NCBI GenBank assembly: GCA_958510825.1
Contig: OY294044.1
Coordinates: 69,204,095 to 69,268,094 of the forward strand
Source: Brachypterus glaber
Taxonomy: Eukaryota > Arthropoda > Insecta > Coleoptera > Kateretidae
Direction of reading: 5' to 3'
Length of the DNA stretch: 64,000 bases
Shown here: positions 15,005 through 58,855 of the stretch, in pieces
Position numbering within the stretch: the stretch's first letter is position 1
Layout of the letters: each line of letters starts with the position of its first letter
Notes under the pieces: model-generated
What the model was told of the DNA's origin: nothing
Databases searched by the model: none
What the model saw: the letters and a program-made list of their open reading frames with translations, nothing else
Made by a program: the position numbers and the translations under genes

Positions 15005-16142
15005 CGCTTGAAGAAAAAAGATAAAATATATCGCGCAAACATTATAAAAGTCTTATAATATTAAATAATGGTAGATACTTAATTCTAGAAATAATTGAAA
15101 TAACAGTGAAGATTCATACTTATTATTGTTCAAGTACCTATCTGTCATTTACATGAAATGAATAGAATTACCACAGATAGACATCACACTACAATGATAT
15201 TAATCAGAATAGCTTTACTGTTGCTTGTTTTAAACAAACACGTTCATTATAGGCTTCTTAATATGAAAGGAATTTGTATTTAAAATAATTTAATTATTAA
15301 TTTTAATAACACGAAACAATTTTTTTAGTAGAGAATATCTGGTAATAATTTGACACAGTACTCATTTATTTTAATGTAAAAAATGTGTCTTGAAAAATTT
15401 TAAATACGTTTAGTAGTTTTACAAATTTTCTACAGCTTAACGCATTTGCCTAGCTTTTCTTTATTTGTTTAGTATAATATAGTAATAGTAAAAAATCCAA
15501 AACAAAGCAAAATTTGCCCAAGAGACCTATGACTTGTGTCATTTAGCATTAAATTTTAAAAAGTTATTTTTTTTGATTTTATAATTTTTATTCGAGTTTT
15601 AGGACTTTTCATTTGTCCCTTTACTTTAAAATTGTTGATATTTTACATTCATATTTATATTCAAAAAAAATAAAATAAGCATAATAATATTTAGCATATT
15701 ATTATGCGCATGCTATATTTATTTTAATATTATATAGTGACTAAAGTGTAGTTTTTATTGCTATAATTTTATAAAAACTGTTATTTCATATTAAATTTTC
15801 AAATTACTGCTTAATTTAAATTTAGTTTTACGGTAATTTTACATTAAGTTTAATAAACAATAAATAAAAGTAGTATTTTATACAGAGTGGTTTAGAAATA
15901 AGTTATAAAATTTTAGGGGATAAATCTAGTTTAAAATCTATAAAAAAAGTTTTAGTTCGCCATTAAAATTTAAAGGAAATTTGTTGAATATGCAAAAATA
16001 TTCTGGAAAATCGGGGGCACCTGTGAATTTATGACATGAAGCTTTCCGTATTTAAAAAAATCGACTAATAATTTTATGAGATTTAATTAAATATTTATTA
16101 GCAGAGTGTAATAAATTTTATTGAAAACAAAAAATTAATAAC
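15005..16142. other. AT-rich stretch, nothing recognised
   Basis: No open frame of note and no clear repeat structure. Short self-complementary AT words such as TAATATTTAGCATATTATTA (about 15,686) are expected in this composition. Confidence 0.5.
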
Positions 16143-16188
16143 AATTAATTAGAAATTTATTATTCCATCAATCTATTTTCTAATCATC

Positions 16189-16261
16189 GTACAGAGTGAT
16201 ATTGGTAGACTGACAGTTTCGGGCTGCTGGCCCTCTTCAGTACCAAGAGTCAACTCTGCAC
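16189..16261 (-). ncRNA. Type I hammerhead ribozyme, unit 1
   Basis: On the minus strand: distal helix I GUGCAGAG/CUCUGUAC (8 bp with one G-U), internal loop UUGACUC/UAUCA, proximal helix I UUGGUA/UACCAA, core CUGAAGA, helix II GGGC-CAGCA-GCCC, core GAAA, and helix III ACU-GUC-AGU (3 bp, or 4 bp with one-base loop). Predicted cleavage is after C17, opposite G16,208. All invariant core positions (C3 U4 G5 A6 G8 A9, G12 A13 A14, A15.1-U16.1) are present. The 73 nt are identical in all four units. Confidence 0.9.
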
Positions 16262-16335
16262 GCTGATTAAGAAAACGTTTTTAGACTTTACTCGCAAAAG
16301 GAATATAGCCATTAGATTGATGTAGACTTGTGCGC

Positions 16336-16351
16336 CATCTATTTCTAGATG
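16336..16351 (-). ncRNA. GAAA-tetraloop hairpin, unit 1
   Basis: On the minus strand CAUCUA-GAAA-UAGAUG, a 6-bp stem closed by a GNRA tetraloop, followed by GCGCAC. It lies about 75 nt upstream of the hammerhead in the same sense. Equivalent hairpins are at 16,874-16,889 and 17,228-17,243 (-), 17,412-17,427 (+), and in the foldback at 36.0 and 37.1 kb. It may be a structural part of the mobile RNA. Confidence 0.6.
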
Positions 16352-16542
16352 TAGACAACTACTCATACCTCTCCTTATCTGGAGACTTTGAATGGTAGCA
16401 AGTTGAAGACTTGTGTGTCTCAAGCACATAGTACCACTAACGGGTGGTTAGACGTAAAATTAGTAAGGACAGAAATTTTTAATTTTAAACAAAATTATAA
16501 AAATATTCATTTATTATTCCATCAATCTATTTTCTAATCATC

Positions 16543-16615
16543 GTACAGAGTGATATTGGTAGACTGACAGTTTCGGGCTGCTGGCCCTCTTCAGTACCAA
16601 GAGTCAACTCTGCAC
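16543..16615 (-). ncRNA. Type I hammerhead ribozyme, unit 2
   Basis: Identical 73-nt sequence to unit 1, with predicted cleavage opposite position 16,562. The distance to the unit 1 cleavage site is 354 nt, the expected length of a circular monomer. Confidence 0.9.
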
Positions 16616-16623
16616 GCTGATTA

Positions 16624-16807
16624 ATCATCATCTGTAATTTGTTTGGTCTTTACGAGACAGGCTCAGTGCCTATGGCTCATTTATCTAAAATTTGAATTAG
16701 TTTGAATGGATAATTGGGGGAGTGAGTCTCTGCTCACTGATGCTGATTTGCATCTGTCATGAATTTTTTGGGTGTGACGAGGAAGGTGGGAGGGGGTACG
16801 CTGATTA
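16624..16807. mobile_element. 174-bp insertion in unit 2 with 10-bp duplication
   Basis: Unit 2 alone carries 174 extra bases (16,624-16,797) bordered by ACGCTGATTA on both sides (16,614-16,623 and 16,798-16,807). This is a target duplication or a recombination joint. The insert is GC-richer than its surroundings (GGCTCAGTGCCTATGGCTCA, GGAAGGTGGGAGGGGG) and I do not recognise it. A retained internal piece of a longer parental element is an alternative. Confidence 0.7.
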
Positions 16808-17080
16808 AGAAAACGTTTTTAGACTTTACTCGCAAAAGGAATATAGCCATTAGATTGATGTAGACTTGTGCGCCATCTATTTCTAGATGTAGACAACTAC
16901 TCATACCTCTCCTTATCTGGAGACTTTGAATGGTAGCAAGTTGAAGACTTGTGTGTCTCAAGCACATAGTACCACTAACGGGTGGTTAGACGTAAAATTA
17001 GTAAGGACAGAAATTTTTAATTTAAAACAAAATTATAAAAATATTAATTTATTATTCCATCAATCTATTTTCTAATCATC

Positions 17081-17153
17081 GTACAGAGTGATATTGGTAG
17101 ACTGACAGTTTCGGGCTGCTGGCCCTCTTCAGTACCAAGAGTCAACTCTGCAC
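17081..17153 (-). ncRNA. Type I hammerhead ribozyme, unit 3
   Basis: Identical 73-nt sequence; predicted cleavage opposite 17,100. The unit is truncated at its upstream (sense) side by the junction to the inverted copy at about 17,319, but the ribozyme is complete. Confidence 0.9.
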
Positions 17154-17501
17154 GCTGATTAAGAAAACGTTTTTAGACTTTACTCGCAAAAGGAATATAG
17201 CCATTAGATTGATGTAGACTTGTGCGCCATCTATTTCTAGATGTAGACAACTACTCATACCTCTTCTTATCTGGAGACTTTGAATGGTAGCAAGTTGAAG
17301 ACTTGTGTGTCTCAAGCACCCGTTAGTGGTACTATGTGCTTGAGACACACAAGTCTTCAACTTGCTACCATTCAAAGTCTCCAGATAAGGAGAGGTATGA
17401 GTAGTTGTCTACATCTAGAAATAGATGGCGCACAAGTCTACATCAATCTAATGGCTATATTCCTTTTGCGAGTAAAGTCTAAAAACGTTTTCTTAATCAG
17501 C

Positions 17502-17574
17502 GTGCAGAGTTGACTCTTGGTACTGAAGAGGGCCAGCAGCCCGAAACTGTCAGTCTACCAATATCACTCTGTAC
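17502..17574 (+). ncRNA. Type I hammerhead ribozyme, inverted unit 4
   Basis: Plus-strand copy, 73/73 identical. Helix I 5' strand 17,502-17,509 and 17,517-17,522; CUGAAGA 17,523-17,529; helix II 17,530-17,542; GAAA 17,543-17,546; helix III to U17,554; cleavage after C17,555; helix I 3' strand 17,556-17,561 and 17,567-17,574. Helix III is so short that a monomer may be weakly active; a head-to-tail pair could form a dimeric fold with a U-U mismatch. Confidence 0.9.
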
Positions 17575-17668
17575 GATGATTAGAAAATAGATTGATGGAA
17601 TAATAAATTAATATTTTTATAATTTTGTTTAAAATTAAAAATTTCTGTCCTTATTAATTAATTAGAAA

Positions 17669-18350
17669 GATGTGATAAAACTACTTGGCTTAAACATAGA
17701 TGACTTTTAATAGAATTAAATGAACAGTTGTATGCATACATTTCATCAAAAACACGAATATTGCATAAATTGATCAACAATTTTAATTTAATTTAACATC
17801 ATCAACAGGAGTGGTCCACTTTTGAATTGAATGAAGATGATTTTTTTTTCGATTTTTTTTTCATATTTTGCAGGGTACCTTTATTTCGGAGAGTAGAAAG
17901 ACTGATATAACGAGTCTGAGGTTGTGATTATACTCTATTGGTTTCAACACATAGCTTTTTTTTATCAGTCGTTCTTTGGTATGTTGAGCTGAATTTAAAC
18001 GCCCTCTCGACCTGGGTATCTATTCTCGGGGTCGAGAGAACGTGAACAATTTTCGTTTGGAAGGGAACTGATCACATAATTTCAAAGTTCCCCAAAGTTA
18101 AAAAATGCTGTTCTTGAACAGTAGTGACTAATACCTAACAAGTTCTATGCTGCAGATCCCTTAAGGGATCTAAAGGGATCTAATTAGACGAATGGGGCCG
18201 AAATTAAGCGAATCACACCCGAATTGATATGATCTACGCCCTCTACCACATACTCGCAAATAGGTCACTGCACGTTTCACTGGAAGTATACTGTAAACAT
18301 CAATAAATTGTATGTTTATGGTAAATAGATAGAACTTAATAAACAAATAA
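17669..18350. other. Unannotated, with one element fragment and two hairpins
   Basis: 17,790-17,880 resembles one arm of the foldback at 56,978-57,520 (AACATCATCAACAGGAGTGG, then TTTTTTTTCATATTTTGCAG). A hairpin TCTCGACC/GGTCGAGA with a loop of about 17 nt lies near 18,010-18,045. A perfect 18-bp palindrome AGATCCCTTAAGGGATCT is at 18,154-18,171. No gene is visible. Confidence 0.5.
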
Positions 18351-19240
18351 CACTGGTCGACAAATCTGAAGATTTCTCTAACTGAGATTCCAGACATAGG
18401 TTTATACTAATTTTGGGTCGCTGAATCCAAATCCGAAGGCCGTTTGTCTCCATCACCCTCAAATTTTTTGATATCATAAAAAAATAAAATAAGGAAAATT
18501 GATTTTGTGTAATTACAAGAAAATGCTTTGCTTATCACATTAAAATTTAGTACGGTTAAGGATTAAGGATATTTTTTTTTATAAACATCGGGGTGGGGTA
18601 AAGGGGTAAAATGGGGTTAAAACTTTTTTTAATTTTTTTTTCAATTTATTTTTCGTTAAAACGAAAAAAAGAGACTTTTATTATTATTATTATTTTTAAT
18701 TTATTTATTTATTTTTATTTTTATTTTAATAAACCTAGACCTATAGGAGAAAGTATTATCTTGTTGGCAGCAGTTTTTTTCTTAGTAGAACTTGCAGAGA
18801 TATGTTTAAACCTATTTTTCTCGAAAACTATTGACCTTTGATCAAAAGGTCCAATATGTTTTTTACGTAAAATTAATCAATAAATAATAATTTTTTATCG
18901 AAATTAAAAATTCTTAAACATAAATTTTGTTGGAGAAATATATTACAGAAACACTTTAGAACGCACGCTTCTGACATACACACAACTGTATTTTTGGGTA
19001 AGTAGGTGAATAAATAACTTATATTACCACTATTAACCGTACTAAATTTTAATGTGATAAGTCAAAGCATTTTCTTGTAATTACACAAAATAAATTTTCC
19101 TTATTTTAACTTTTTTTATGATATCAAAAAATTTGAGGGTGATGGAGAGAAACGGCCTTCGGATTTGGATTCAGCGACCCAAAATTAGTATAATCCTATG
19201 TCTGGAATCTCAGAGAAATCTTCAGATTTGTCGACCAGTG
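18351..19240. mobile_element. 890-bp element with about 205-bp terminal inverted repeats
   Basis: Starts CACTGGTCGACAAATCTGAA and ends with the complement TTCAGATTTGTCGACCAGTG, flanked by TAA on both sides. Arms (18,351-18,557 and 19,032-19,240) share GGTCGCTGAATCCAAATCCG and TTGATATCATAAAAAA. The interior contains the AAAATGGGG/GGCAGCAGT module also seen at 1.9-2.1 kb. A 76-codon frame there is low-complexity. Non-autonomous. Confidence 0.88.
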
Positions 19241-19616
19241 TAATTGGTCTATTCGTGATAATTAAAAATAACTATTTAATAAATTTTCTTACCATTAAGC
19301 GTTTACTACCACAGACAGTTTATTTGGTTTTGTCCGGAAGATTTAAGGCAAATAAATTTTATATTAAAGGTTATTATATAACTTAATTAGTACTTAATTA
19401 GTACAATTAAACTTTTTAATTAGTAGAACCATTAACAATGGTCATTGGCTCGAGCCAATTAAAATAATATAGTTGATTAGAATGGTTTATTTATTACCAA
19501 TATACTTAAAAAACTGAGTTTATTACTGGAGATTAAAATATACTCTTGTCACCTATTTTGTTATACTTTCTAGTTTTGATTATTTAACTTACATTTGCAG
19601 TAATTATACTTTTTTT
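19241..19616. other. AT-rich stretch, nothing recognised
   Basis: Includes a short direct repeat TACTTAATTAGTAC near 19,388-19,403 and GGCTCGAGCC at 19,447-19,456. No gene. Confidence 0.5.
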
Positions 19617-25744: not shown

Positions 25745-26026
25745 GCTGCCAGTGGTTTGTTTGTTTGTTTGTTTGTTTAACCTCCTACTATTCTACTTAA
25801 TTAAGCATCCCCTAAGTCCAGGACTTGTGTGGGCTAGTAGTAGAGGGAACCACCGGCTTATACTGACTTTCGAACCAGTTTCTAGGGAGTGTCCGTTTCA
25901 CTTATCGCCTTCGCCAAATTTCAATTATTAATTAACTGAAAAAGGCAAATCGGCGCCAGTGAGAATCGAACTCACGATAGTAGACTTGCTATGCATACGC
26001 GCTAGCCACTACGCTATGCCTCCCAT
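25745..26026 (-). mobile_element. tRNA-derived SINE, copy 3 (full length)
   Basis: Minus-strand order: head GGGAGGCATAGCGTAGTGG near 26,026, B-box-like GAGTTCGATTCTC (about 25,963-25,975), GGCGCCG, body, and a (AAAC)n tail (25,757-25,780). AGTGG is repeated on both sides, consistent with a target duplication. The intact R2 sequence at 14.87 kb shows the empty site. Confidence 0.93.
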
Positions 26027-39455: not shown

Positions 39456-39529
39456 TGTATCTTGATAATAATGTACCTTGGATCACCCTTCAGTTTCTTG
39501 ACAGTTGCTGACAATGATTATTCAGTAAA

Positions 39530-39874
39530 GTGGCCTCTCTGGGGGACTGTCGTCTGGACATCGGGGTGAGGGGTGGATGTCCACAGGGCAGTTGTCTTTC
39601 ACCTCACTTATGGTGTCTAGTTATGGACAGTCTCCTAGAGAGGCTGACGGCCGCTGGGCTATACGCACAAGCATTTGCAGATGATGGCACGGTCCTAGTC
39701 AGTGGAAGGTTCTTGGGCACGGTCTGTGAAAGAAACCAGACAGCCTGCAGGATAATAGAAGAGTAGTGTGAGGAAAAAGGCTTATCAGTCAACCCAACAA
39801 AGACTGAGCTTATCCTCTTTACCAATAGGAGAAAGATAGAGAACTTTAGGGCCCCCCAAATGTATGGAAACCGC
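39530..39874 (+). pseudogene. LINE reverse transcriptase fragment (palm)
   Basis: Frame 2. GCPQGSCLSPHLW (about 39,573-39,611) and YAQAFADDGTVLVSG (about 39,662-39,706) are RT motifs, FADD carrying two catalytic aspartates. A TAG stop at 39,764-39,766 lies where W is usual (EE-stop-CEEKGLSVNPTKTEL), probably a single-base change. The frame continues to RAPQMYGNRL and is then lost to a frameshift near 39,874. Confidence 0.9.
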
Positions 39875-39876
39875 TT

Positions 39877-40578
39877 GTGCTCTCACAAGAGGTCAAGTAC
39901 TTGGGAGTAACCCTAGACAGTAAACCCAACTGGAAGGCGCATGTAGACAAAGTCATTGACAAGTCGATTGCGACCTTCTGGCACTTGCGTCGGGCAGTGG
40001 GAAAAAGCTGGGGCATGACCTCACAGATACTATTATGGATCTATACCGCCGTCATTAGACCCAGAGTCCAATATGGCTCGGTGGTATGGTGGCCAAGCGT
40101 CAGCAAAACCACAGTAGCTCGGAGTCTGAGTAAGATCCAAAGACTAGCGTGTCTCGGGATCACCGGCGCAATCAGGACGACTCCCACATCAGCACTGGAA
40201 GTTCTACTGGGGCTGCCAACGCTTCCGTCCTGGATAAGGAGGGAGGAAATGGCTAGCTACCTTAGAATGAGAGATGTTGGATGCTGGCTGGGTGAAGGGG
40301 CAGTCTACGGACATACAAAAATCGCCGATGTTGCCAGAGTAGAGTTACCTATCAGCAGCATCAAGGTGATAGAGGCGGAAGACCGATTAAGGTTTGACAG
40401 AGCATTCTCTCTCACTATACCAACAAAACACGAGTGGGAGAACAAGGAAGTTAATTTTGCCGAAAACGCAACAGTGTGCTATACAGACGGCTCCGGGATG
40501 GAAAGCACGCAAAGCTCGGGCGCAGGCTTCTTTGTACAAGACACGGGGGTTCAAAAGAGCTATTCGCTCGGCAGGTAA
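39877..40578 (+). pseudogene. LINE RT thumb/connection and start of RNase H
   Basis: Frame 1, 233 codons open. EVKYLGVTLDSKPNWKAHVD and WIYTAVIRPRVQYGSVVWW are typical of the region after the RT core. GITGAIRTTPTSALEVLLG follows. CYTDGSGMES (D at 40,486-40,488) is the first catalytic aspartate of RNase H. It ends at TAA 40,576-40,578 in the same frame as the next piece, so this stop is a point lesion. Confidence 0.92.
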
Positions 40579-41322
40579 CCCACGGTATTCCAAGCGGAAG
40601 TCTTTGCGATACAGGAAGCGGTAAGATGCGAAGAGGTTCTAGGGAGTAACGGATCAGATGTATACATCTGCTCCGACAGCCAAGCAGCCCTCAAGGCTCT
40701 CAGTGCACCCGGCACAAGATCCAGTCTTGTGCAGGAATGCATAGAAGCCCTGGAGGAGCTAGCGAGGAACAAAAGAGTCCACCTTGTATGGGTCCCTGGA
40801 CACAGCGGGATACCAGGCAACGAGAAGGCAGACGAACTTGCCAGGCTCGGAGCCGAAACTCCGTGCATGGGACCCGAACTCATGCTTGGTATTACAAGGA
40901 AACAAGTCACATCAGCCCTCAACACGTGGGCTGGAGAAAAACTAAGGGAAAGCTGGTCAACGGTCACGAACTGCAGACAGGCAAAGGACTTCCTTTCCGG
41001 TCCAAGCAAGTCAAAAACCGCGTGGCTACTAGGAAGAAGCCGAGCCACGATCAGCCAACTCACAGGGATCCTCACGGGTCACTGTAGACTAGGAAGGCAC
41101 CTGTTCAAGATGAAGGTCGGTAACGACCCCGTCTGTTCGGGTTGCGGGATAGACGAAGAATCGTCCTTCCATTTCCTAGGACAATGCGATCGGCTCGGCA
41201 GAATACGACAGGAGATCTTCGGAGTGGCAACTCTCCGAAGAGAGGAGTTGCGTACCCTTGCCTGGACAGATATCGCGACCAATATAAGGAGGTCCGGCAG
41301 GTTTAGGCAGGGAGTAGGGTAG
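40579..41322 (+). pseudogene. LINE RNase H remainder and C-terminal Cys/His motif
   Basis: Continues in frame 1: FQAEVFAI (E at 40,597), YICSDSQAALKAL (D at 40,675), VHLVWVPGHSGIPGNEKADE then LAR complete the D-E-D-D RNase H set. GHCRLGRHLFKM precedes CSGCGIDEESSFHFLGQC, a C-C-H-C arrangement common near LINE C-termini. Stop TAG at 41,320-41,322. Apart from the upstream stop, this part is intact, so decay is recent. Confidence 0.93.
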
Positions 41323-57654: not shown

Positions 57655-58855
57655 ACAGTAATAATAATATATTTATTCACGGAAGTTCCATTTTAAAATT
57701 TACAATATAAAATAAATATTTCACTTAATATATAGGTACAATAAAATATGAAAAACAGGTACAATAGAATCACGAACAAAATAGACTTTTACAAAAGAAA
57801 AAAATATATATATGTATATCACAGTCTGTCCAATTTTCTCTTAATATGAGATTTATAAGCACTTAGAGATAAAGTGAAATCAACACTAAGATCGTTGGCA
57901 AGCTTGCACATTCTGTTAATTGGTGCATTTAACATATAATTTGTTTTACACAACCTCTCATATTCAGTGACGGAACTAAAAAATTTAATAATGATAGCGC
58001 TACTGGGCAATCTATCATACCATTGACTAGCTTATATAAAAAAATTAAGTCATGAAATTTACGTCTATTTTCAAGAGTATCAATATTAAAATATTGTCGA
58101 ACTGTTGAAGTTTCCAAAAATAGCATCCCCGTCTTAAAATTTAAAAATCTAAGAAACCTGTTTTGAACTCTCTCCAATTGAGACTTCTGCTCAATATAAA
58201 ATGGAGACCAAACTATTGAAGATAATTCCAAATTAGATCTCACTATAGAAAAATAAAGCTGCTTTATACAATTTACATTTATAAAATCTCTCAAATTTCT
58301 TTTCAGAAAACCCAGAAGTTTAAGTGATTTATTGCACTGAATTTCTATGTGCTTGTTAAAACACAATGTGCTATCATATGTAACACCTAGATCCTTCATC
58401 ATCGTAACGTTTTCAAGGACAACTCCATTGATGTTGTAAGCAAACTGTATGGGATTATGACTTCGAGAAAAGTACATTGCTTTGCATTTTTCTGCATTTA
58501 ATTTCATACCGTTTGCCACACACCATCCATGGAGTCTGTCCAGAGCTTCCTGAAGTTTTAAACAATCAATCAAATTTCTGATAATAAGATATAGTTTAAG
58601 GTCATCAGCAAATAGTAAAAAAAGCAAATAACCCAAAACGGATTTAATATCATTAATAAAACAGTTAAAAAGTATAGTAGATATGATAGATAGGTGTAGT
58701 AGATAGGTGTCCGCCTTGAGGCACTCCCGACGTTACCTCAAAAGCATATGATAGCACATTATGTAATTTAACCACTTGATATCTACTCTTTAAGTAATCT
58801 GAAACAGTGGATCAACTAACTAATGATCCTTGCGGCGACCAGAAAAAATCATTGA
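57655..58855 (-). mobile_element. 5'-truncated jockey/CR1-type LINE
   Basis: Minus-strand element running from about 58,855 (coding, just before the RT GVPQG motif) to a 3' UTR ending near 57,655 in an AATAATATATTATT-like tail. Endonuclease and ORF1 are missing and no RNase H is seen, as in jockey/CR1-group LINEs. It is broken by frameshifts near 58,636 and 58,000. Confidence 0.9.
57819..58855 (-). pseudogene. LINE reverse transcriptase (second half)
   Basis: From 5' to 3': EVTSGVPQGGHLS (about 58,740-58,700) in one frame; after a frameshift near 58,636, LLFLLFADDLKLYLI with the catalytic FADD (about 58,600); LDRLHGWCVANGMKLNAEKC, KDLGVTYDSTLCFNKHIE and LYFSIVRSNLELSSIVWSPF, standard for the palm-thumb region. 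A second frameshift near 58,000 leads to CKLANDLSVDFTLSLSAYKS and stop at 57,819. The 235-codon open frame is 57,929-58,636. Confidence 0.92.

Follow-up and report, generated by a model that had tools for sequence, protein, structure and literature searches.

The retrozyme described here, a non-coding, hammerhead-bearing repeat in the genome of the beetle Brachypterus glaber, belongs to a known animal class, and the way its copies are inserted resembles that of Penelope-like elements. What is new is the way in which its copies end, namely with one end at a site denoted here A and the other at a second site, B; no earlier statement of this rule for retrozymes was found in the open-licence literature that was searched. 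Below, the window is the whole stretch of 64,000 nucleotides that was analysed (contig OY294044.1), and coordinates given without a locus name refer to it.

Anatomy of the array in the window

The array (16156-17655) contains four identical type I hammerhead motifs, three of them sense on the minus strand and one on the plus strand, and is enclosed by an exact 13-bp direct repeat, the target-site duplication (TSD) AATTAATTAGAAA, at 16143-16155 and 17656-17668. A preliminary description, made from the sequence alone, had proposed four identical ribozymes, a cut on the plus strand at C17555/U17556 and a 13-bp repeat around the whole, all of which were borne out: a type I descriptor scan of both strands of the 64 kb found exactly these four motifs, the descriptor motif places the cut at the same bond, and the repeat is exact. 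On 60 first-order Markov shuffles, the same descriptor gave a mean of 0.05 matches per shuffle, none with a helix I of at least 6 bp together with a helix II of at least 4 bp. The motif comprises CUGAAGA, helix II GGGC/GCCC, GAAA, helix III ACU/AGU with the cut after UC, and a helix I made of a proximal part, UUGGUA/UACCAA, and a distal part of 9 bp with one G-U pair. The retrozyme unit is 354 nt long with a G+C content of 36%, and no open reading frame of at least 120 codons overlaps the array.

The left arm (minus strand) is 2.8 unit lengths long, not counting a nested insert, and starts at an end of type A, where the sense 3' sequence ...GGAATAATAAA stops about 51 nt past the cut. This edge belongs to unit 1 (16156-16509), which is complete at 354 bp and carries hammerhead copy 1 (16188-16262, a span that takes in the distal helix as read from the sequence; predicted cut 16208/16207). 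Unit 2 (16510-17047), with hammerhead copy 2 (16542-16616), measures 538 bp, that is, 354 bp plus a gain of 184 bp, because it harbours an unrelated 173-bp insert with an 11-bp duplication; the insert (16625-16797, minus strand, 3' end ...GATGATGA) is not retrozyme sequence and lies between two copies of ACGCTGATTAA at 16614-16624 and 16798-16808. Unit 3 (17048-17319, 272 nt), the partial, 5'-most portion of the arm, carries hammerhead copy 3 (17080-17154) and ends at the 5'-to-5' inversion junction 17319/17320, where the arms share a 3-bp microhomology, CAC (17317-17320). Beyond the junction, the right arm consists of the inverted unit 4 (17320-17655, plus strand, 336 nt, 0.95 unit) with hammerhead copy 4 (17501-17575, predicted cut 17555/17556), which was found by the descriptor scan and was folded both freely and under constraint; the right edge of this unit is an end of type B, the sense 3' sequence ...CTGTCCTTA reaching 17653, +98 past the cut, followed by TT. 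The inverted arms are complementary at 99% over 324 nt, so the fourth unit is indeed inverted as first described, and the earlier statement that every unit has about 354 bp holds for unit 1 only. A search for an empty site with the joined flanks of the window recovered no empty copy, its results being the flanks themselves and a 43-nt match to one side.

The nested insert is probably a 5'-truncated LINE or SINE fragment. The possibility that it is a one-off was rejected, given that three further loci have related, different inserts at the equivalent position of the unit: relatives about 82% identical, with a GATGAT-type 3' end and differing lengths, were found at L009 (2826-3000 and 3722-3896), L012 (2960-3204) and L013 (3924-4154), and another lies outside a retrozyme in L031. 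The insert position, about u291-304 with the target TTAATCAGCGT, recurs in several retrozymes, which suggests a preferred target site for a LINE/SINE-like family. At L009 (2129-4411), insert-bearing units alternate with insert-free ones, the two inserts being 896 nt apart, a pattern which fits a two-unit RNA template copied round more than once and is no proof of a circle.

The window contains other repeats as well. Remnants of non-LTR retrotransposons with RNase H and reverse transcriptase (RT) domains are located at 39518-41322 and 57929-58732, and the named relatives of the latter reading frame are headed by Nesidiocoris tenuis (a mirid, 46% identity), followed by a seed beetle and then Lygus hesperus. 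Close to the retrozyme, an inverted repeat of about 220 bp with 94% identity (18338-18559 and 19033-19253) is perhaps another mobile element, and a tRNA-like Rfam match of 40.7 bits at 25951-26023 marks a tRNA gene or else a tRNA-derived SINE, of which it would be the head.

The family in the genome and its predicted ribozyme

A search for the element throughout the genome, as the preliminary description had advised, was productive: a 33-nt core of the motif, allowing at most 2 mismatches, occurs 2704 times on the plus strand and 2644 times on the minus strand of the 648-Mb genome, and the same pattern read backwards, used as a control, has 0 occurrences. These 5348 motif copies identify an abundant animal-type (non-LTR) retrozyme family. 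No retrozyme match was detected in collections of phage, viral and prokaryote sequences, the last two searched with the exact 33-nt core only.

Animal retrozymes were defined by Cervera and de la Pena in 2020 (PMC7229834). The family shows the features of that class, with a type I core, a short multimeric non-coding unit, a G+C content below 50% and TSDs longer than 4 bp, and it lacks LTR structure, given that its ends are internal positions of the unit. As portrayed in the text available from PMC7229834 and from a 2020 review (PMC7761336), metazoan non-LTR retrozymes likewise have non-coding units of about 170-400 bp with a type I hammerhead and low G+C, form multimeric arrays with TSDs of more than 4 bp and coexist with Penelope-like elements. 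They are described there as tandem, with no mention of inverted arms in the portions of these sources at hand, unlike the present copies which usually consist of two 5'-to-5' arms with A and B ends. Plant LTR retrozymes are similar in being ribozyme-bearing and non-autonomous, with a proposed circular RNA stage, and have features of their own, in particular type III hammerheads, LTRs, a PBS, a PPT, a 4-bp TSD and a Ty3-Gypsy helper (PMC7761336, in the part available).

The retrozyme RNA is predicted to cleave itself through the hammerhead. Alternatively, the motif could be a decayed, inactive relic of a hammerhead with no role in the life cycle, and several observations point in that direction. 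An Rfam hammerhead covariance match, the first check named in the preliminary description, did not materialize, either at the gathering threshold in the window or at E<=10 in 16000-17800. For an 87-nt stretch, the free fold reaches -30.9 kcal/mol compared with -24.6 kcal/mol for the imposed hammerhead, so that in a model without tertiary contacts a non-hammerhead fold is favoured by 6.3 kcal/mol. Furthermore, helix III of the monomer has only 3 bp with a 3-nt loop, and the distal part of helix I, with variation in 7.5% of cells, is as variable as unpaired sequence (6.5%), so no constraint is seen there. A relic is nevertheless rather unlikely. Thousands of copies persist within 2 mismatches and, among 68 distinct variants, proximal helix I (1.7% of cells) and the core (2.1%) vary less than the rest of the block (6.5%), a comparison affected by the search anchor, which favours helix III and some of the core. 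Moreover, the helix III strand ACUGUCAGU is self-complementary except for one U-U, so that two units could pair as a dimer with an 8-bp helix III (-8.3 kcal/mol). Dimers have been reported for amphibian hammerhead repeats, and the helix III of the possible retrozyme dimer is comparable.

Folded as a circle, the monomer has 64% of its bases paired (z-score about -2.9 against 60 shuffles). Covariation, the absence of which was among the refuting conditions of the preliminary description, neither supports nor refutes the hammerhead because it is sparse: among 195 hammerhead copies, 68 of them distinct, a double change with pairing preserved occurs once (GC to AT in helix II), and one distal pair shows G-U/A-U exchange, a scarcity to be expected given that 110 of the 195 copies are identical. 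The Rfam microRNA matches in 16000-17800 scored below the gathering threshold and fall on the palindrome.

Ends, targets and junctions of the retrozyme copies

Ends were read at 49 loci, comprising 39 that were scored out of 3003 candidates (the window and 38 others) and ten near-consecutive ones, which are ten of the first eleven coordinate-ordered exact-core matches on contig 1 (a three-motif array near 2.158 Mb was left out). With arrays shorter than 60 bp dropped, these loci yielded 54 arrays, the longest spanning at least 14 unit lengths (L032). Positions were numbered from the first base after the ribozyme cut. The two arms of an array meet 5'-to-5', the outer ends being RNA 3' ends, and these fall mostly at two sites, A at about +51 (typical end sequence ...GGAATAATAA) and B at about +98 (...CTGTCCTTA); with microhomology included, the medians are +53 and +99. 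Among 99 outward RNA 3' ends, 49 lie in interval A (44-66) and 41 in interval B (86-110), which means that 48 of the 354 unit positions take 90 of the ends.

The two sites are used in a complementary manner. An A end is combined with a B end in 36 arrays, including the copy in the window (A on the left, B on the right); one array has two A ends (L029) and none has two B ends; the other 17 consist of 8 with one A or B end and one end elsewhere and 9 with a single outward end (6 A, 2 B and 1 other). Thus, of the 37 arrays whose two ends both lie in the intervals, all but one are mixed (P about 3e-10 against independent choice, a value that is descriptive and no blind test, given that the intervals were drawn after the ends had been seen). 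The ten near-consecutive loci on their own gave 6 A/B arrays, 3 with one end elsewhere and 1 with a single A end, with no A/A or B/B array among them.

Most arrays, 36 of 54 overall and 32 of the 36 with A/B ends, lie between direct repeats of 11 bp or more, compared with 0.5% of 2852 mismatched pairs, in which the left edge of one locus was paired with the right edge of another. In the 31 A/B arrays that enter the target profile (five of the 36, with no TSD or a TSD outside 10-17 bp, were omitted), the duplications measure 13 bp (9 arrays), 14 bp (8), 12 bp (6), 11 bp (3), 16 bp (2), 17 bp (2) and 15 bp (1). The target is 77% A+T, and the majority nick context over these 31 loci lies between AA and TAA at the B side and between ATT and GTT at the A side, although edges shift where TSD and element overlap. 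The earlier reading of the window array as a multimer reverse transcribed and inserted in a single event is upheld as regards the single event, given the one TSD around the array and the repeats of at least 11 bp at most arrays, but it leaves the inverted unit unexplained.

At the inversion junctions, 41 in all, microhomology of at least 3 bp is present in 14, compared with about 6% by random pairing; at 12 others, 1-10 extra bases are present, and a single junction is blunt. The positions at which the arms meet are scattered, with 7 of 41 pairs within 20 nt of each other where 4.7 are expected. The scatter and the microhomology together suggest that two independent cDNAs were joined, which argues against fold-back of a single one. 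The arm 5' ends give no clear sign of a linear cleaved template with run-off at the cut: 5 of 82 lie within 9 nt of it, with 4.4 expected, and of three that map to the cut exactly, one (L032) is an artefact of the mapping ruler. Two loci, L014 (2743) and L016 (3564), have an identical junction (u231/u158, 5-bp microhomology), and one of these was possibly derived by retrocopying the other.

A probable Penelope-type mode of insertion

The genome contains 31 GIY-YIG matches. One locus, L057 (1-6001), encompasses two partial tandem Penelope-like copies with one open frame for RT and GIY-YIG, and the 6 kb read shows no obvious hammerhead. Four of the eight 3' regions read (L058, L059, L064 and L065) do have a minimal type I hammerhead, which ends in GAAACGUU; L059 and L064 represent one family. 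Families 1 and 2, queried with L058 and L059, respectively, are known from a GIY-YIG match and a 3' region, the RT frame having been read for L057 only. In the best 40 matches of family 1, excluding the full-length row that represents the query itself, there are 57 match ends, of which 52 cluster in two intervals of the query, 494-518 and 525-543 (medians +68 and +97 past the cut). Both ends can be assigned in 14 of its 18 neighbouring inverted pairs, and each of these 14 is mixed. For family 2, again among the best 40 matches, 49 of 54 ends form two clusters with medians of +70.5 and +98, and the 12 of 16 neighbouring inverted pairs that can be classified at both ends are likewise all mixed. 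Within the best 40 matches of each family, this amounts to 26 classifiable pairs out of 34, every one of them mixed. The ends in a third GIY-YIG family (L065) would agree with two sites, and this family was left out of the count because an indel in the query makes the first site unreadable.

The retrozyme itself codes for no RT or GIY-YIG domain and is not a Penelope-like element, nor does it share sequence with the Penelope-like stretches examined in this genome. Specifically, no tail sequence common to both was found in the eight 3' regions and one longer stretch. The one match, in L061, was considered as a shared tail and rejected as a decayed piece resembling the retrozyme; this piece (oriented 1194-1230), 86% identical to the sequence just 3' of the cut, has no ribozyme core beside it and carries C at the distal helix position occupied in the retrozyme by the U of the G-U pair. 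What is common is spacing: the distance from the cut to B is nearly equal in the retrozyme and in families 1 and 2, with no shared sequence found there. Site A lies at +51 in the retrozyme and near +70 in the two families, and the tail between the sites accordingly measures 47 nt in the retrozyme; the two host families have median tails of about 28-29 nt, and that of the rotifer element is 31 bp long. Given the lack of a shared tail, a partnership of the two is recognised by architecture only.

Retrozymes and Penelope-like elements, both named as comparators in the preliminary description, were the right ones. With GIY-YIG Penelope-like elements of the Penelope/Poseidon type, such as PAc of Anolis and Penelope of A. 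vaga, the retrozyme has in common inverted terminal copies and a hammerhead that precedes the start sites, as well as a short TSD, two RT start sites (the 'tail'), an AT-rich target and, in all likelihood, extension of both strands. In the available text of PMC11167929, purified PAc protein cuts and extends both strands, prefers AT-rich (ATT) sites and starts internally at two adjacent sites that match the genomic tail; the ribozyme cut lies 26 bp and the common start 111-118 bp into the ORF, 85-92 nt apart, and ribozyme mutants still inserted in vitro. In that assay the two strands showed no difference in start site, so the one-each rule is not explained by PAc. For rotifer Penelope, PMC3846280, in the part available, describes inverted pLTRs, 8-10-bp TSDs and a 31-bp tail on one inverted pLTR. 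A Penelope-like helper for animal retrozymes was suspected in PMC7229834 on account of the hammerheads, tandem copies and hosts that the two have in common, and PMC8969392, which mentions inverted pLTRs with short 3' extensions, also states that retrozymes may rely on Penelope-like elements; the repeats themselves, as summarized in the accessible part of PMC7761336, contain no conserved motif that would reveal the helper retrotransposon.

Taken together, an insertion of this retrozyme family is likely to be made by Penelope-type machinery in the following way. The array would be transcribed and cut by its type I hammerheads, and circular or multimeric RNA would serve as the template. An enzyme with Penelope-like RT and GIY-YIG domains, which we infer to be that of families 1 or 2, would nick the two strands of an AT-rich target with a stagger of about 12-14 bp, as given by the TSDs. 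Each nicked 3' end would then prime inside the RNA, at about +98 (B) on one strand and about +51 (A) on the other, as the observed end positions indicate, and the cDNAs would extend 5'-ward round the RNA, so that one arm may hold several units. Finally, joining of the far cDNA ends by short microhomology would produce the observed structure, a 5'-to-5' inverted array in one TSD. The geometry of the copies would agree with cutting and extension of both target strands by the same enzyme, and two converging cDNAs, one primed per target strand, fit both the inversion as the usual state and the fixed ends. Standing against the model are the 18 of 54 arrays without an A/B pair and the 8 of 34 Penelope-like pairs in which at least one end escaped classification.

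Other modes of insertion have to be weighed against this one. In L1 twin priming, cDNA synthesis starts at the RNA 3' end from one nicked strand and at a variable internal position from the other, which gives head-to-head arms, TSDs and microhomology at the inversion. LINE machinery acting in this manner would yield much of what is seen here, including an inverted 5' part within one TSD; 5'-inverted L1 retrocopies are mentioned in PMC2912911, as far as the available part goes, and LINE remnants are present in the window. However, twin priming does not predict a fixed second place, whereas the retrozyme ends are both fixed and complementary, differing in all but one of 37 arrays; there is no poly-A run at the insertion ends inspected; and the hammerhead-bearing GIY-YIG families of the same genome obey the same rule. 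We therefore regard this scenario as quite unlikely. Self-priming, in which a single cDNA turns back or antisense RNA primes itself to form a palindrome, was proposed from palindromes at rotifer Penelope junctions (PMC3846280, in the part available), and the junction in the window is near-palindromic, with arms 19 unit positions apart. Across the family, though, the arms should then meet at near-equal unit positions, as 7 of 41 do where chance gives 4.7, and fold-back offers no reason for the far end to lie at the other start site, making it very improbable. An origin by recombination, in which tandem repeats were dispersed and inverted and the 13-bp repeat arose by chance, is barely credible: similar hammerhead repeats were first described as satellites (according to the available text of PMC7229834), but the excess of flanking repeats over mismatched edges, the fixed ends and the short, dispersed arrays all speak against rearrangement of satellite-like DNA.

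Within the Penelope-type scheme, a narrower proposal, plausible yet short of probable and the favoured account of the one-each rule, is that a single complex carries out the insertion, with a Penelope-type dimer nicking both strands, one protomer starting at B and the other at A on the same RNA. In that case, recognition would rely on the hammerhead together with the spacing that follows it, a module through which a non-coding RNA could capture Penelope machinery without a shared tail. SINEs, by comparison, take a shared tail sequence from LINEs. If the Penelope-type scheme holds, the helper enzyme of a retrozyme would be readable from the ends of its insertions, and the question of the helper becomes directly testable. 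The retrozyme, non-coding and present in thousands of copies, would also provide a clean system for the study of two-strand insertion by Penelope-like elements, which make up a third class of retroelements and are poorly understood.
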